From contig JADLHF010000203.1 in NCBI GenBank assembly GCA_020848935.1, positions 1 through 38,419 on the forward strand: a stretch of 38,419 bases of DNA. Reading direction: 5' to 3'. Under the pieces are notes generated by a model, which saw nothing but the letters and a program-made list of their open reading frames with translations, did not search any database and was not told the origin of the DNA. Numbering within the stretch: position 1 is the first letter of the stretch; every line of letters begins with the position of its first letter. Positions 4,734 through 35,149 of the stretch are shown piece by piece. Position numbers and translations under genes: made by a program. The DNA comes from Acetobacteraceae bacterium. Its GTDB lineage: Bacteria; Pseudomonadota; Alphaproteobacteria; Acetobacterales; Acetobacteraceae.

Positions 4734-5090
4734 ATGATCCGCATCGCATTGCTGGCCGCCCTCGTCGCGCTGGCGTCCTGCGCGATAGAGCCTGATTACA
4801 ATGACGGGCGCGTCTATGCCCCCCGGCCGGCGCCGTACCCCTATTGGGGGCCAGGCTATGTCGGGCCTGGATATGTCGGACGTGGATATGTCGGGCCTGG
4901 CTATGTCGGGCCTGGGTATTTCGGGCGCGGCCATCGCGGTGGCTATGCGCCGCAGCCCAATCGTGGCGAGGGCCATCGCCCACCGCCCGGACCCGTGCCG
5001 CGCGCCGCGACGCCGCAGCACCAGCGTGGGCCGTACGTTCCCGGCGCCGCCGCGCGCGAGCCGGCGCGGGTGGAGCAGGGCGCCGATTGA
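4734..5090 (+). CDS. Small glycine/proline/tyrosine-rich lipoprotein
   Basis: This 118-residue predicted lipoprotein starts at ATG 4734 behind a good ribosome site (CGGAGGAACC). The first 18 residues form a signal peptide ending in a lipobox (L-A-S-C), so the mature protein would begin at that cysteine and be anchored in a membrane. The rest has no recognised domain. Its centre is a run of five-residue units of the form G-Y-V-G-P/R, then a His/Gln/Pro-rich low-complexity tail. Such proteins are common envelope components of unknown role. It lies between DedA and a truncated exporter, and neither neighbour indicates a function. Confidence 0.7.
   Translation: MIRIALLAALVALASCAIEPDYNDGRVYAPRPAPYPYWGPGYVGPGYVGRGYVGPGYVGPGYFGRGHRGGYAPQPNRGEGHRPPPGPVPRAATPQHQRGPYVPGAAAREPARVEQGAD
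4852..4931 (+). repeat. In-gene 15-base tandem repeat encoding GYVGP-like units
   Basis: About five copies of a 15-base unit run head to tail inside the lipoprotein gene. The consensus is close to GGCTATGTCGGGCCT, with A/C changes in copy three and a final degenerate GGGTATTTCGGGCGC copy. The unit length is a multiple of three, so copy number can change without breaking the frame. Confidence 0.75.
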
Positions 5091-5152: not shown

Positions 5153-5464
5153 ATGGACGCACCCCTCCTGCCGCTGGTCGTCTTTGCCTTTGCCGCGCTG
5201 TTCCAATGGATCAACCCCAAGGCCTGGCTGCTGGCGCTGTCGATTGCCGCCGCCTGGGTGCGCCCGGACGCCCCGGCGATGCCGCAATTGCTGGTGATCG
5301 GCGCGGTGTTCTTCCTGGTGACCCCGCCCAGCTGCATCCCGTGGGCGCTGCTGGGGCAGGGGAGCGCACGCCTGGCCGGGCATGGCCGCGGGCTGCGCGC
5401 CTTCAACATCGCCATGGCGCTGCTGCTCGTTGCCTCGGTGGTGCCGATGGTGCTGGAAGGCTGA
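5153..5464 (+). pseudogene. LysE family exporter, C-terminal half only
   Basis: The 103-residue frame matches only the C-terminal half of a LysE/RhtB-type amino-acid exporter. It opens in the middle of the family at FQWINPKAWLLALS, a hallmark segment, and continues through three hydrophobic helices to the usual end (RAFNIAMALLLVASVVPM). Full-length members have about 200 residues with an N-terminal P-G-P motif helix pair, and nothing like that lies in the 62 bases between the lipoprotein stop and this ATG. An in-frame stop at 5114 blocks any extension. I therefore read it as a remnant left by an N-terminal deletion. A functional half-size transporter cannot be excluded, because the reading frame is intact and the conserved residues are kept. 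Confidence 0.65.
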
Positions 5465-5510
5465 GCCGGCCGGTGCCAGACTGCCGGGACAACCGAGGGG
5501 CACCATCGCC

Positions 5511-6569
5511 ATGGCCACCGTTCTGACCGACACCGGCACCCACGCGGTGCCAACCGCCGGAGGGCTGATGCTGGCCCCGGAGGACGCCGAGCGCATCACC
5601 GGCTGGACGCTGAAGCCCGAGGGCATGTGCCGCGAGGAATTCTGCGTGCCCGTCCCCGCCGGCATGAAACAGGGTACCCACATCGACGTGGCCGCCTTCT
5701 GGCGCCACCTCGGCAACCCCGTGGCATCGGACCGCGCCGGGCAGACCTGGGTGCTCGGCACCGGGCCCGGCGAACGCCAATCCGCCCTGGCCGGGCTCCA
5801 GGCGCCGGAATTCGTGCTGCCCGACCTCGCGGGCAAGCAGCACCGCCTGTCCGACTATCGCGGGCAGAAGGTGTTCCTGACCACCTGGGCGTCCTGGTGA
5901 GGCTGCCGGCTTGACCTGTCCGTGTGGCAGGATTTGCAGGATTGCCTCTTCGACGCCCCCTTCACCGTCATCGCCGTGGCCGAGGAGGGCCGCGGGGCCG
6001 AGCAGGCGCGGCCCTGGATCGAGCAGGCGCGGCCGGCCTATCCCTGTTTGATCGACAGCGACCATCGCGTGTCCGCGCTGTACGGCATGGTCAACGTGCC
6101 GCAATGCGTCTGGATCGACGAGCGGGGCGTGATCGTGCGCCCGCCGGAGACGGCCGGTTCGACCGATCATTTCCGCCGCATGGATTTTTCCACCCGCACC
6201 CTGGCCCCCGAAGACGCCGCCGCCCGCCTGGCCGCCCGCGCCGCCTATCTCGACGCGGTGCGCGCCTGGGTGCGAACCGGCAAGCATGCCCTGCCCGGCG
6301 ATGAGGCGCGCGCCCGCATGCCGGTCATCACCGCCGAGATGGCGCAGGCCGATGCCCTGTTCCGCCTGGCGCTGCATCTGCGCCGCCACGGGCAGGCGGC
6401 CGAGGCGGGCGAGCATTTCGCCGAAGCCAGCCGGCTGCACCCGGACTCCTGGTCGATGTTCCGCGACGCGATGGCCCTGGAACCCTCCGGCCTGGCCGGC
6501 GGGGCGGCGTTCTGGGACCGGGTGAACGCGCTGGGCGACAAGCCCTACTACACGCCGCCGGACCTGTGA
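5511..6569 (+). CDS. ResA-like thioredoxin-fold selenoprotein (WAxxUGC motif), read through TGA 5898
   Basis: Read through a single in-frame TGA at 5898-5900, this is a 352-residue protein with selenocysteine at residue 130. Upstream and downstream segments are in the same frame and form one redoxin domain: residues ~102-125 (QAPEFVLPDLAGKQHRLSDY, then KVFLTTW) before the TGA and GCRLDLSVWQDL, VIAVAEE and NVPQCVWIDERG after it. The junction reads W-A-S-W-U-G-C, where thioredoxin-like relatives have a redox-active Cys. I recall a RefSeq protein family named for a WAxxUGC motif that this fits. The N-terminal ~100 residues are family-specific, and the C-terminal ~140 are helical and TPR-like. 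There is no signal peptide, so a cytosolic thiol or peroxide redox role is likely. Conventional gene calling would split it into two false ORFs. Confidence 0.85.
5898..5931 (+). promoter_or_regulatory. UGA (Sec) codon with candidate bacterial SECIS hairpin
   Basis: Twenty bases after the TGA there is a short hairpin: 5915-5920 (CCTGTC) pairs with 5926-5931 (GGCAGG), giving six pairs including one G-U. The five-base apical loop at 5921-5925 is CGTGT. This fits the bacterial SECIS rules as known: loop 16-37 bases after the UGA, small loop, and a G within its first two bases. An alternative fold pairs 5903-5907 with 5926-5930. The hairpin lies inside coding sequence, as bacterial SECIS elements do, and would bind SelB carrying selenocysteyl-tRNA. 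Confidence 0.7.
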
Positions 6570-8152: not shown

Positions 8153-8165
8153 CGGCGAAGGAAGG

Positions 8166-8290
8166 ATGTTCTTTTTTGAAAAAAAGAACCAAAAAAACTT
8201 CATTCATTGGAGAACGTGGCACGAGGGTGCGGCACACGCCAATGAATGAAGTTTTTTTGCTTCTTTTTGTTCACAAAAAGAAGGACTTCT
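8166..8290. repeat. Composite AT-rich palindrome, copy A (bidirectional terminator-like)
   Basis: Three nested inverted repeats are visible. A 22-base near-palindrome (8168-8189, GTTC-T6-G-A7-GAAC) comes first. A perfect 21-base inverted repeat follows (8190-8210 with 8239-8259), whose 13-base stem is flanked by A7 on the left and T7 on the right. The last is a 24-base palindrome (8260-8283, CTTCT5GTTCACA5GAAG). A stem bounded by an A tract and a T tract works as an intrinsic terminator in both directions, and it lies between two convergent genes. Variants recur at 9379, 14735, 22178, 29450 and 33893. Confidence 0.85.
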
Positions 8291-8311
8291 TTCTCCTGGG
8301 ATGATGGACCT

Positions 8312-9378: not shown

Positions 9379-9442
9379 AGTTTTTGCTTCTTTTTTCAAA
9401 AAGAAGCGCTGTTCTTTTTTGAAAAAAAGAACCAAAAAACTT
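9379..9442. repeat. Composite AT-rich palindrome, copy B, arms in reversed order
   Basis: Two hairpin arms of the same repeat family lie back to back without the central spacer. A CTTCT6CA5GAAG hairpin (9388-9405) is followed after four bases by the GTTC-T6-G-A7-GAAC palindrome (9411-9432). AAGT5G flanks the left side and CA6CTT the right. It sits in the gap between divergent genes (starts at 9295 minus and 9528 plus), so it cannot be a simple 3' terminator for either. Confidence 0.8.
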
Positions 9443-9527
9443 CCATAACTTGCCGGTGTGTGTCGGCTTTGACGTCGCCCCGCCGCCGCCTTTAGGCTGG
9501 CCTTCCAAACCGCGCGCGGAGCCTGCC

Positions 9528-10328: not shown

Positions 10329-12519
<2,191 letters not shown>

Positions 12520-12520
12520 C

Positions 12521-13723
12521 ATGCCCGAACTCGCCAAGCGGCTGGGCCGGGTTCGCGTTGCCGCCACTGTCCAGATGACCATCCGCGCCCGCGAATTGCG
12601 CGCGCAGGGCCACAACGTCATCGCGCTGACCATCGGCGAGCCGAACTTCGACAGCCCGAAGCACGCGATAGAGGCGGGCTTCGCGGCGGCGATGAAGGGG
12701 GAGACCAAGTACCCCCCGCAGGATGGCACCCCCGCCCTGAAGCAGGCCGTGCAGCGGAAGTTCAAGCGCGACCATGGCCTGGAGTACGCGCTGGACGAGA
12801 TCATGGTCGGCAATGGCGGCAAGCAGGTGCTGTACAACGCCATCATGGCCACCGTGGATGAGGGCGACGAGGTGATCGTGCCGGCGCCGTACTGGAGCGC
12901 CTATGTGCTGATGACGCGCCTGGTCGGCGGCGAGCCGGTGATCGTCAACTGCGCGCAGAACAACGGCTTCAAGCTGCGCCCCGAGGACCTCGACGCCGCC
13001 ATCACGCCGCGCACGAAACTGGTGATGCTGAACTACCCGAACAACCCGACCGGCGCGGCACCCACCGAGGCCGAGCTTGCCGCGCTCGCCGCCGTGTTGC
13101 GCAAGCACCCCCATGTCTGGGTGATCTGCGACGACATGTACGAACACCTGGTCTATGGCGACTTCAAGCACACCACCCTGGCCCAGGTGGCGCCGGACCT
13201 GAAAGACCGCGTCGTCACCGTCTCCGGCGTGTCCAAGACCTATGCCATGACCGGCTGGCGCGTCGGCTTCGCGGGCGGGCCGAAGGAGCTCATCCGCGCC
13301 ATGGTCAACATGCAGGGCCAGGCCACCGCCGGCGTCTCCACCGTCGGACAGGCCGCCGCCGCCGCGGCACTCGACGGGCCGCAGGATATCGTGGCCGACA
13401 TGAAGGCGCAGTACAACGCGCGGCGCGACATGGTGGTGGCGGCGCTGAACAAGATGCCCGGCATTGCCTGCCACAAGCCGGAAGGCGCGTTCTACGTCTT
13501 CCCCAACATCGCCGGCTGCCTCGGCCGCACCACGCCGGCGGGCAAGAAGATCGAGACCGACGCCGATTTCGCCATGGCCTGCCTGGAGGAAGCCCATGTC
13601 GCCCTGGTCGCCGGCGGCGCCTTCGGCATGTCGCCCTACCTGCGCATCTCCTACGCCACCGACGATGCCAGCCTCGCCGAAGCGATGAAGCGCATGGGGG
13701 CCTTCGTCGCCAGCCTGACATGA
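12521..13723 (+). CDS. Class I/II PLP-dependent aminotransferase, copy 2
   Basis: This 400-residue paralogue of the preceding gene starts at ATG 12521, one base after its stop. The PLP lysine is K239 in SGVSKTYAMTGWRVGFAGG. TIGEPNFDSP, VGNGGKQVLYNA, NYPNNPTGA and YLRISYATDD match the family in the same order. The two copies align end to end, share phrases such as ITPRTK and NNGFKLR, but differ in substrate-pocket segments (PYWSAY here, PCWVSY in copy 1), which suggests different amino-acid preference. It overlaps the following GNAT gene by four bases (ATGA), supporting a three-gene operon. Confidence 0.92.
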   Translation: MPELAKRLGRVRVAATVQMTIRARELRAQGHNVIALTIGEPNFDSPKHAIEAGFAAAMKGETKYPPQDGTPALKQAVQRKFKRDHGLEYALDEIMVGNGGKQVLYNAIMATVDEGDEVIVPAPYWSAYVLMTRLVGGEPVIVNCAQNNGFKLRPEDLDAAITPRTKLVMLNYPNNPTGAAPTEAELAALAAVLRKHPHVWVICDDMYEHLVYGDFKHTTLAQVAPDLKDRVVTVSGVSKTYAMTGWRVGFAGGPKELIRAMVNMQGQATAGVSTVGQAAAAAALDGPQDIVADMKAQYNARRDMVVAALNKMPGIACHKPEGAFYVFPNIAGCLGRTTPAGKKIETDADFAMACLEEAHVALVAGGAFGMSPYLRISYATDDASLAEAMKRMGAFVASLT

Positions 13724-14730: not shown

Positions 14731-14734
14731 GAAA

Positions 14735-14866
14735 GCAGCTCTTTTTTGAAAAAAAGAACCAAAAAACTTTCAATCATTTAGCCAATGCGGCACGTTGGCG
14801 CCATCCGATGGAATAGTCACGAAAGTCTTTTTGCTTCTTTTTCTTCAGAAAAAGAAGACTTCCTTC
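14735..14866. repeat. Composite AT-rich palindrome, copy C
   Basis: The left hairpin (about 14739-14759, GCTC-T6-G-A7-GAAC) and right hairpin (14834-14857, CTTCT5CTTCAGA5GAAG) flank a diverged middle. There, CA6CTTTC (14760-14771) pairs imperfectly with GAAAGTCT5G (14821-14833). The element lies between convergent genes, consistent with a bidirectional terminator like copy A. Confidence 0.8.
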
Positions 14867-14892
14867 CTTGCTTTGCGACGATCCACCCCACC

Positions 14893-22177: not shown

Positions 22178-22316
22178 AAGGAAGGCCTTCTTTTTCTGAA
22201 GAAAAAGAAGCAAAAAGACTTTATTCATTATTCATCGCATGGCACTGGCGTACCAACGCACTCCAATGAACAAAAGTTTTTTGGTTCTTTTTTTCAAAAA
22301 AGAACATCCTTCTTTT
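22178..22316. repeat. Composite AT-rich palindrome, copy D
   Basis: The left hairpin 22187-22210 (CTTCT5CTGAAGA5GAAG) and right hairpin 22284-22305 (GTTCT7CA6GAAC) flank a middle in which CA5GACTTTATTCATT pairs partly with AATGAACA4GT6G. The arm order is the reverse of copy A. Both neighbouring genes read rightward, so here it can serve as a 3' terminator for the TrmO-like gene. Confidence 0.8.
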
Positions 22317-22370
22317 CATGTTTGATTCTTGACCAATCCAAATCGCACAACACCCACCAGGCAGGCTGCC

Positions 22371-29439: not shown

Positions 29440-29449
29440 GAAGTCAAGA

Positions 29450-29492
29450 ATCTTCTTTTTGTGAACAAAAAGAAGCAAAAAAACTTTATTCA
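29450..29492. repeat. AT-rich palindrome half-element, copy E
   Basis: A single hairpin (29452-29475, CTTCT5GTGAACA5GAAG, perfect 11-base arms) with the downstream CA7CTTTATTCAC flank of the family is present; the second arm is missing. It starts 12 bases after the Rieske stop, fitting a terminator position. Confidence 0.8.
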
Positions 29493-29512
29493 CAAAGACT
29501 CTTCTCTCCCCC

Positions 29513-33877: not shown

Positions 33878-33892
33878 CACGTAGTCCACACT

Positions 33893-33941
33893 CCAACGGA
33901 TAGAAGTTTTTTGGTTCTTTTTTTCAAAAAAGAACATCTTG
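33893..33941. repeat. AT-rich palindrome half-element, copy F
   Basis: Hairpin 33914-33935 (GTTCT7CA6GAAC) with the AAGT6G flank of the family is present; the opposite arm is absent. It lies within the gap between the stop of the enolase-superfamily gene and the pepT start on the minus strand, as a 3' end element of the upstream gene. Confidence 0.8.
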
Positions 33942-33943
33942 CT

Positions 33944-35149
33944 TCAAGCACCAAAAACCTCCGTCTCCGCCTCGATCCTGGCGGGGTCCAGATCCATGCC
34001 CAGCCCCGGCTGGTCGTTGCACCGGATCAGCCCGTCCACGGGATGCACGGGGTGCAGCAGGAAGTGCTGGTGGATGGCGTTCCATTTCTCCAGGTATTCC
34101 TGGTACGGCGTATGGATCGGCGACTGTGCCAGCGAGAAATGGATGCCGGCCGGGGTGGAATGCCCGTGCGGAATCACCACCAGGTCGGCGGCGGTGGCCA
34201 TGGCGGTGATCTTCAGCGTCTCGGACAGCCCGCCGCACCAGTAGATGTCGGGTTGCAGCACATCCAGCGCGCGGGCATCGATGAACCGCTTGAACCCCCA
34301 GCGGGTGTATTCATGCTCCGCCCCCGAGAGGGGAATGTTCGTCTTGTCCTTGATCGCGCGGTAGCTGTCGATGCGGTCGGGCATGGCGCATTCCTCCAGC
34401 CAGCGCGGGCGGTATTCGGCGATCCGCTCGGCGAGTTCGATCACGTAGGGCGCGTTCATCGACTGCCAGCAGTCGAACATGATGTCGTAGTCATCGCCGA
34501 CGGCCGCGCGCACCGTGCGCACCAGTTCGACGTTCTTCTTCATGCCGTCATGCCCGCTCATCGGGCCGTGACGAAAGAACCATTTCTGCGCCTGGTAGCC
34601 CTGTTCCTTGAACGCGATGGCCCGCGCCCGCACCCGCGCCGGATCCTGGACGTCGAAGCCGAGAGTGGAGATGTAGGCCGGCATGGCATCCCGCGTGGGT
34701 CCGCCGAGCAGCTTGCAGACCGGCACGTTCAGCCAGCGGCCCTTGAGGTCCCACAGCGCGCAATCCATCGCTGAGATCGCCAGCATCGCGTCGCCCTGGC
34801 GGCCATGCACCATGATGCGGTGCATCTGGTCCCACAGCATCTCGTGGGCGATCGGGTCCTTCCCCATCACGATGCGGCGCAGGCTGCGCGCGACGATGCT
34901 GCCGACCGCCTCGCTGATCGGCCCGGCGATGCCGCACACGCCGTCATCGGTGTCGATCTGCAGGAAGCAGGCGTCGATCTGGAAGCGGTGGTCGTCGAGC
35001 TGGAGGCCGCCTTCGTTCTCGTCGCGCCGCTGGGTGCCGCGGTATTCCTCGTAGATGTCGATCGGCCGGACCAGGCGGTCTTCCCAAAGGCGCCCTTTCG
35101 TCGCCATCGTGCCGCGCAGCTTGCGGATGCGTATCGCGGTGATCTTCAT
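33944..35149 (-). CDS. Enolase-superfamily acid-sugar dehydratase (rhamnonate dehydratase-like)
   Basis: This 401-residue mandelate racemase/muconate lactonising enzyme subgroup member would dehydrate an acid sugar using Mg2+. Metal ligands are the Asp in MFDCWQS, the Glu in WLEECAMP and the Glu in SGAEHEYT; the general acid/base region is QKWFFRHGP and the late His in IPHGHSTPAG. The overall order, including KLLGGPTRDAM, DVLQPDIYWCGGLSE and QPGLGMDLD, follows E. coli RhmD. L-rhamnonate is the best guess, but related acid sugars are possible. The start at ATG 35149 gives the expected MKITAIRIRKL strand. No sugar transport or aldolase gene adjoins it. Confidence 0.85.
   Translation of the reverse strand: MKITAIRIRKLRGTMATKGRLWEDRLVRPIDIYEEYRGTQRRDENEGGLQLDDHRFQIDACFLQIDTDDGVCGIAGPISEAVGSIVARSLRRIVMGKDPIAHEMLWDQMHRIMVHGRQGDAMLAISAMDCALWDLKGRWLNVPVCKLLGGPTRDAMPAYISTLGFDVQDPARVRARAIAFKEQGYQAQKWFFRHGPMSGHDGMKKNVELVRTVRAAVGDDYDIMFDCWQSMNAPYVIELAERIAEYRPRWLEECAMPDRIDSYRAIKDKTNIPLSGAEHEYTRWGFKRFIDARALDVLQPDIYWCGGLSETLKITAMATAADLVVIPHGHSTPAGIHFSLAQSPIHTPYQEYLEKWNAIHQHFLLHPVHPVDGLIRCNDQPGLGMDLDPARIEAETEVFGA

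Follow-up and report, generated by a model that had tools for sequence, protein, structure and literature searches.

Selenoproteins of a 'Prx-like (UGC-containing)' kind, assigned to pfam00578, were listed in 2008 and found to be commoner in non-marine than in marine samples (PMC2398784). The UGC-containing kind was listed again in a 2022 review (PMC9312934) and stands in Table 1 of a 2026 review with the status predicted (PMC13188914). The closest profile is the NCBIfam model NF041054, WAxxUGC_long, which describes a 'ResA-like WAxxUGC motif-containing protein'; we found no literature naming WAxxUGC, NF041054 or a ResA-like selenoprotein. This kind of protein is already known from sequence predictions, and the gene described here, located on a stretch of 38,419 nucleotides (hereafter the window) of an Acetobacteraceae bacterium (assembly GCA_020848935.1, contig JADLHF010000203.1), is a further member. 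The full explanation that we favour, to which we give a probability of about 0.93, is that of a 352-residue selenoprotein in which a hairpin and SelB would decode UGA codon 130, within a ResA/TlpA-like U-G-C redox centre.

On the forward strand, positions 5511-6569 form a single frame of 352 residues with a final TGA stop and, at codon 130 (5898-5900), an in-frame TGA, around which the residues read W126-A-S-W-U130-G-C132. A Shine-Dalgarno-like GAGGGG was recognised by eye at 5495-5500 (+), 10 bases 5' of the ATG. Translation with table 11 splits the gene into two frames, 5382-5900 and 5922-6569, and annotation would ordinarily turn such a gene into two broken hypothetical ones. The original prediction had regarded the same-frame halves 5511-5897 and 5901-6569, separated only by the TGA, as one protein, which is confirmed, as the matches to both Pfam AhpC-TSA (the best domain match, 56 bits for a cut-off of 26, residues 95-209) and WAxxUGC_long span the TGA. 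The bacterial redox family to which it had pointed proved to be NF041054, matched with an E value of 2e-87 over model positions 8-350 of 354 and residues 21-348. With C substituted for U, the window protein itself scores 293.8 bits (287.1 in a six-frame search) and so falls 6 bits short of the cut-off, set at 300, and this cut-off is passed in 1 of the 200 family-sample genomes and 6 of the 385 class-sample genomes. Because this branch scores a few bits too low for NF041054, such genes are possibly under-annotated in Acetobacteraceae and other Alphaproteobacteria. Translation, profile matches and alignment together delimit the coding sequence, and the split-looking gene is almost certainly one protein whose internal stop is read as selenocysteine.

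Three domains can be delimited in this protein. The N-terminal one (5511-5780, +; residues ~1-90), outlined with AlphaFold2, contains Cys40 and Cys45, which all 14 proteins of alignment A1 share, a Cys-form relative among them. It is followed by a ResA/TlpA-like thioredoxin-fold domain (5793-6140, +; residues 95-210), defined by Pfam, PDB alignment and Foldseek, and by a C-terminal helical domain (6207-6536, +; residues ~233-342), weakly TPR-like (TPR_2, 19.6 bits for a cut-off of 27). U/C130, Cys132 and Pro197, which we take to occupy the cis-proline position of thioredoxins, are also invariant in A1. A sequence search of the PDB gave 31 distinct sequences at an E value of 0.01 or better, of ResA-, TlpA- or DsbE-like type, the best being 3kcm (E 5.8e-17). 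In the PDB alignment, residue 130 is matched to the first Cys of C-x-x-C and Cys132 to the second, a one-residue gap being needed. The best AlphaFold2 model, built with 13 sequences, has a mean pLDDT of 86.6 and a pTM of 0.87, the other four averaging about 70-72, and shows a strand-rich N-terminal domain, the thioredoxin-fold domain and C-terminal helices; it is poor past the active site, with a mean pLDDT of 60 for residues 131-140 versus 78 for residues 121-130. Among the 50 PDB matches listed by Foldseek, almost all are ResA, TlpA, DsbE, StoA or other thioredoxin-like proteins, one domain being matched.

The protein is predicted to be a thiol-disulfide oxidoreductase with a U-x-C centre, Sec130 attacking and Cys132 resolving. 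The U-G-C centre would correspond to C-x-x-C minus one intervening residue. Sec130 would attack a substrate disulfide (or a peroxide), and Cys132 (codon 5904-5906, +), which its invariance in A1 and the PDB alignment designate as the probable resolving Cys, would resolve the intermediate into an intramolecular selenenylsulfide, which a cellular thiol system would then reduce. C-G-C in thioredoxin is known to mimic a disulfide isomerase. By eye, the N-terminus has no hydrophobic stretch and no evident signal peptide or membrane anchor; because no signal peptide is evident, the site of action is probably the cytoplasm.

The main functional rival is that the selenoprotein would act like a peroxiredoxin and mainly reduce peroxide instead of exchanging thiols and disulfides. 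PxxxTxxC/U, the peroxidatic motif of peroxiredoxins, is absent by eye, and the nearest solved sequences and folds are of the ResA, TlpA and DsbE types, with Sec taking the place of the first Cys in their C-x-x-C. These results argue against peroxide as the main substrate, even though Pfam AhpC-TSA is the top domain match and the 2008 survey classed the kind as Prx-like (PMC2398784). We consider this alternative unlikely, yet serious enough to be kept in mind beside thiol-disulfide exchange.

The codon itself was compared between relatives. Of 50 fetched loci covering codon 130, the window included, 49 have TGA at the site, representing 45 distinct coding sequences, and one has TGC (Cys); TAA or TAG occurs at the site in none of the 50. 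The single Cys form (L034, genome G145) reads W-A-S-W-C-G-C, and its protein is 40% identical to that of the window. The TGA was expected to lie at the position of a redox-active Cys, which is borne out both by the C-x-x-C alignment and by the TGC of L034, and homologues, TGA in 49 loci and Cys in one, were found to contain no other sense codon at this position. Since the same TGA is present in 44 further distinct coding sequences, a single-base sequencing error can for practical purposes be discounted.

Sampling at increasing distance gave the same picture. In the family sample of 200 genomes, the NF041054 search gave a strong match (E 2e-59 or better) in 14, of which 13, counting the window's own genome, have exactly one TGA, the locus without a stop being L034; weaker matches (E 3e-16 or worse), which span the thioredoxin domain only, were left out of these counts. 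The class sample yielded 25 matches (E 1e-30) in 22 of 385 genomes, own genome included, with TGA in every one, and the phylum sample of 398 genomes yielded two matches only, both already counted. A scan of named genomes added 13 loci, of which 12 span codon 130, all with TGA; the remaining one, L066 of Rhodopila sp. RYN_443, begins 3' of the site. L066 has an in-frame TAA further downstream and L083 (G509) an extra TAG 39 codons upstream of its TGA; in each case the copy may be decaying or the sequence erroneous. Three genomes of other families (G289, G321 and G424) each have two diverged gene copies (L067 and L090, L068 and L088, L087 and L089, respectively), every copy with its own TGA in a U-G-C motif. 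One carrier, Rhodopila globiformis DSM 161 (L063), is cultured, which makes both the incorporation and the chemistry of the uncommon U-x-C centre testable.

Selection was compared on either side of the codon. Between the window and six relatives, omega ranges from 0.13 to 0.37 before the TGA and from 0.12 to 0.42 after it, so that purifying selection 3' of the TGA is about as strong as 5' of it.

Selenocysteine at residue 130 had been said to demand SelA, SelB, SelC and SelD in the host. The corresponding genes are all present in the window's genome (4.6 Mb, 301 contigs, 95.2% complete): selA (552.4 bits, cut-off 268), selB (338.5 bits, cut-off 242), selD (291.8 bits, cut-off 125) and a tRNA-Sec (92-base model match of 81.1 bits, cut-off 47), for which ARAGORN agrees and gives the anticodon TCA. 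The selD match (L051, G000:C118) lies within a 721-residue open frame and is possibly fused to another domain. A tRNA-Sec gene nested in selB has been reported for Alphaproteobacteria (PMC8124441); ARAGORN detected none inside the selB locus L001, the own-genome gene being located on another contig. In the own genome and in three other sampled genomes of the genus, selA and selB are on separate contigs.

The gene is found together with the machinery. selA is over its cut-off in 63 of the 200 family-sample genomes and in all 13 carriers, and in 56 of the 385 class-sample genomes and all 22 carriers; the naive hypergeometric P values of this association, which ignore relatedness, are 1e-7 (family) and 6e-21 (class). 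Of the 34 distinct carriers, 33 have a selB match above the cut-off, the exception being G165, where selB is absent at an E value of 1e-65. Neither selA nor selB was detected in G145, the 66% complete genome of the Cys form, or in G111 and G150, which belong to carrier genera and lack the gene itself. The draft genome of carrier G167 has two different selB genes (G167:C1004 and G167:C355).

An alternative reading takes the TGA for a genuine stop; the gene would then be a pseudogene, or would encode a short protein and a second one restarted downstream, for example at the GTG at 5922. The two frames given by table 11 are what this reading would predict; the TGA is however identical in 45 distinct coding sequences and never replaced by TAA or TAG, purifying selection acts on both sides of it, termination would sever the thioredoxin domain at its active site, and the carriers all lie within the selA genomes, which makes a true stop very improbable. 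That UGA is reassigned or non-specifically read through as Trp or Cys in this lineage, for which no support was found, is less probable still, as TGA is an ordinary stop for 15 of 26 long window frames (hand-picked from the frame list), CCA is the anticodon of the tRNA-Trp detected in the own genome, a dedicated tRNA-Sec with TCA is present, and the sole relative without TGA contains Cys there, not Trp. We therefore rejected a pseudogene, a sequencing error and a reassigned UGA, the conserved TGA, the selection and the machinery arguing against them. None of the outcomes named beforehand as contrary to selenocysteine at residue 130 (a genome lacking the machinery, homologues with another sense codon, a misread TGC or TGT) occurred, which supports this reading. 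From the frame, the conserved TGA, the machinery, the co-occurrence and the hairpin described below, all established by computation, we infer that selenocysteine is incorporated at codon 130 (5898-5900, +).

A SECIS-like apical hairpin was identified at 5916-5930 (+), with a stem 5916-5920/5926-5930 and a loop CGUGU at 5921-5925, a sixth pair, 5915-5931, being present in the window sequence. An unguided consensus fold of 40 distinct 54-base stretches consists of this one hairpin (columns 19-23/29-33). A longer fold (5899-5948, +), in which 5899-5903 and 5944-5948 pair below the hairpin, is seen in the window sequence only, the lower stem being missing from the consensus fold. Standard pairs occupy 197 of 200 pair cells (98.5%) in alignment A4, which comprises all 40 sequences. 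Alignment A2 (34 sequences) had omitted six of the 40 distinct stretches, on account of the DNA pattern or a nearby upstream stop; the result held, with 98.8% of paired cells. Two pairs show compensating changes, from G-C to C-G in two rows and from C-G to U-A in three. None of 500 column shuffles matches the real paired percentage or covariation score, while 42 of the 500 also give two compensated pairs. When the pairing is slid by +3, three compensated pairs are obtained, yet only 45.5% of the cells are paired.

The loop is mostly CGUGU and its first G is invariant. Its valine codon is GTG in 42 of 44 sequences, the strongest synonymous conservation among 168 columns (z -8.2, rows being treated as independent). 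Taken as a block, the ten codons 3' of the TGA show no excess conservation over the rest (P 0.14); the loci of this block test were selected by a DNA pattern that fixes the first codons, whereas single-codon scoring used no pattern. The Cys form L034 has lost the GTGT, the corresponding stretch being CCCGACTGGCAG.

Comparison with the published bSECIS model gave a less specific result. The model specifies a loop of 3-9 nt, a stem of 4-16 bp, a G in loop positions 1-2, a distance of 16-37 nt from the UGA and an energy of -7.5 or lower (PMC13188914). The window falls within it, with a loop of 5 nt, a stem of 6 bp, 20 nt from the UGA and -12.4 kcal/mol, this energy being that of a 42-base segment, which alone passes the -7.5 limit, as the hairpin by itself has -6.6 kcal/mol. 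In our own implementation, 37 of 45 distinct sequences pass; because 41% of synonymous recodings pass too, a pass is weak when taken alone. A search of the window against Rfam matched no family. By itself, the SECIS evidence is moderate. In the mechanism that we propose, SelB bound to the hairpin 5916-5930 would deliver Sec-tRNA to UGA codon 130, allowing the ribosome to continue, with SelA, SelB, SelD and tRNA-Sec supplied from other loci of the same genome.

As judged by eye from frame lists, a LysE-like gene, the selenoprotein gene and a ketopantoate-reductase-like gene recur together in the genus (window, L060, partly L058). A shared operon across relatives was not found; because the neighbours differ at L063, L064 and L065, the neighbourhood does not indicate a function. 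Just upstream of the selenoprotein gene, the LysE-like exporter gene (5153-5464) has 103 residues, about 96 in-frame residues fewer than the 199-residue L060 version, which could reflect either a true deletion or a collapse during assembly. Elsewhere in the window, AT-rich self-complementary repeats of ~35-60 bases occur as direct and inverted copies in a GC-rich background, at 8161-8294, 9381-9451, 14731-14868, 22182-22318, 29441-29494 and 33889-33945, and resemble terminators or small mobile hairpins. Two adjoining aminotransferase-like genes at 11314-13723 are 72% identical at the DNA level along stretches of 300 and 171 bases and probably result from a tandem duplication, and 15-base tandem repeats lie at 4833-4937, within a small lipoprotein-like frame.

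The gene also bears on the upkeep of the Sec trait. In a 2006 survey, Sec-decoding Alphaproteobacteria are described as having selA-selB-selC operons with the adjacent formate dehydrogenase gene fdhA as the only selenoprotein gene (PMC1794560), and selenoproteins besides FdhA have been proposed as possibly maintaining the trait (PMC13188914). Among the 34 carriers, 10 encode an FdhA that exceeds the TIGR01553 cut-off and is interrupted by one TGA, and G167 encodes one free of stops; 6 yield just weaker partial matches, and 17, including all four genomes of the window's genus (drafts), have no match at an E value of 1e-50. The best FdhA match of the own genome (112.8 bits) has no stop and reads C-H-A-P-T at what we take to be the expected Sec site of FdhA. 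The UGC protein is the only Sec client identified in the own genome by a search that covered FdhA and this family. As the four genomes contain no Sec-FdhA match, the trait appears to be kept in the genus without a detected Sec-FdhA. We tentatively propose, at somewhat less than even odds, that this freshwater-type genus keeps the whole Sec trait, its selA and selB lying on separate contigs, without Sec-FdhA, the UGC thioredoxin-like protein being its sole or main client. If true, a thiol enzyme, and not FdhA, would sustain the 21st amino acid in a lineage whose sole selenoprotein was believed to be FdhA. This branch, in which carriers without Sec-FdhA still retain selA and selB, provides a test of what keeps Sec decoding, and a modest new angle on its retention in the lineage.

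Finally, the window protein can be set against the systems that it resembles. With FdhA, the usual selenoprotein of Alphaproteobacteria, it would share UGA and SECIS decoding by the same machinery, the two enzymes being unrelated. With ResA, TlpA and DsbE it shares the thioredoxin fold and a nucleophile in the same position; these have C-x-x-C, whereas the window protein has U-x-C and additional N- and C-terminal domains. A membrane anchor or an export signal is expected of ResA and TlpA proteins. Its likeness to the UGC-containing Prx-like/TlpA family, judged by domain and motif, lies in a thioredoxin fold of the pfam00578 type and a single Sec within UGC, the tables devoted to that family giving no domain layout (PMC2398784, PMC9312934, PMC13188914). 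NF041054 comes closest, with a shared WAxxUGC motif (WASWUGC here) and near full-length coverage; two loci of other families, scoring 486 and 494 bits, read W-A-P-Y-U-G-C-S, whereas the window protein reads W-A-S-W-U-G-C-R.
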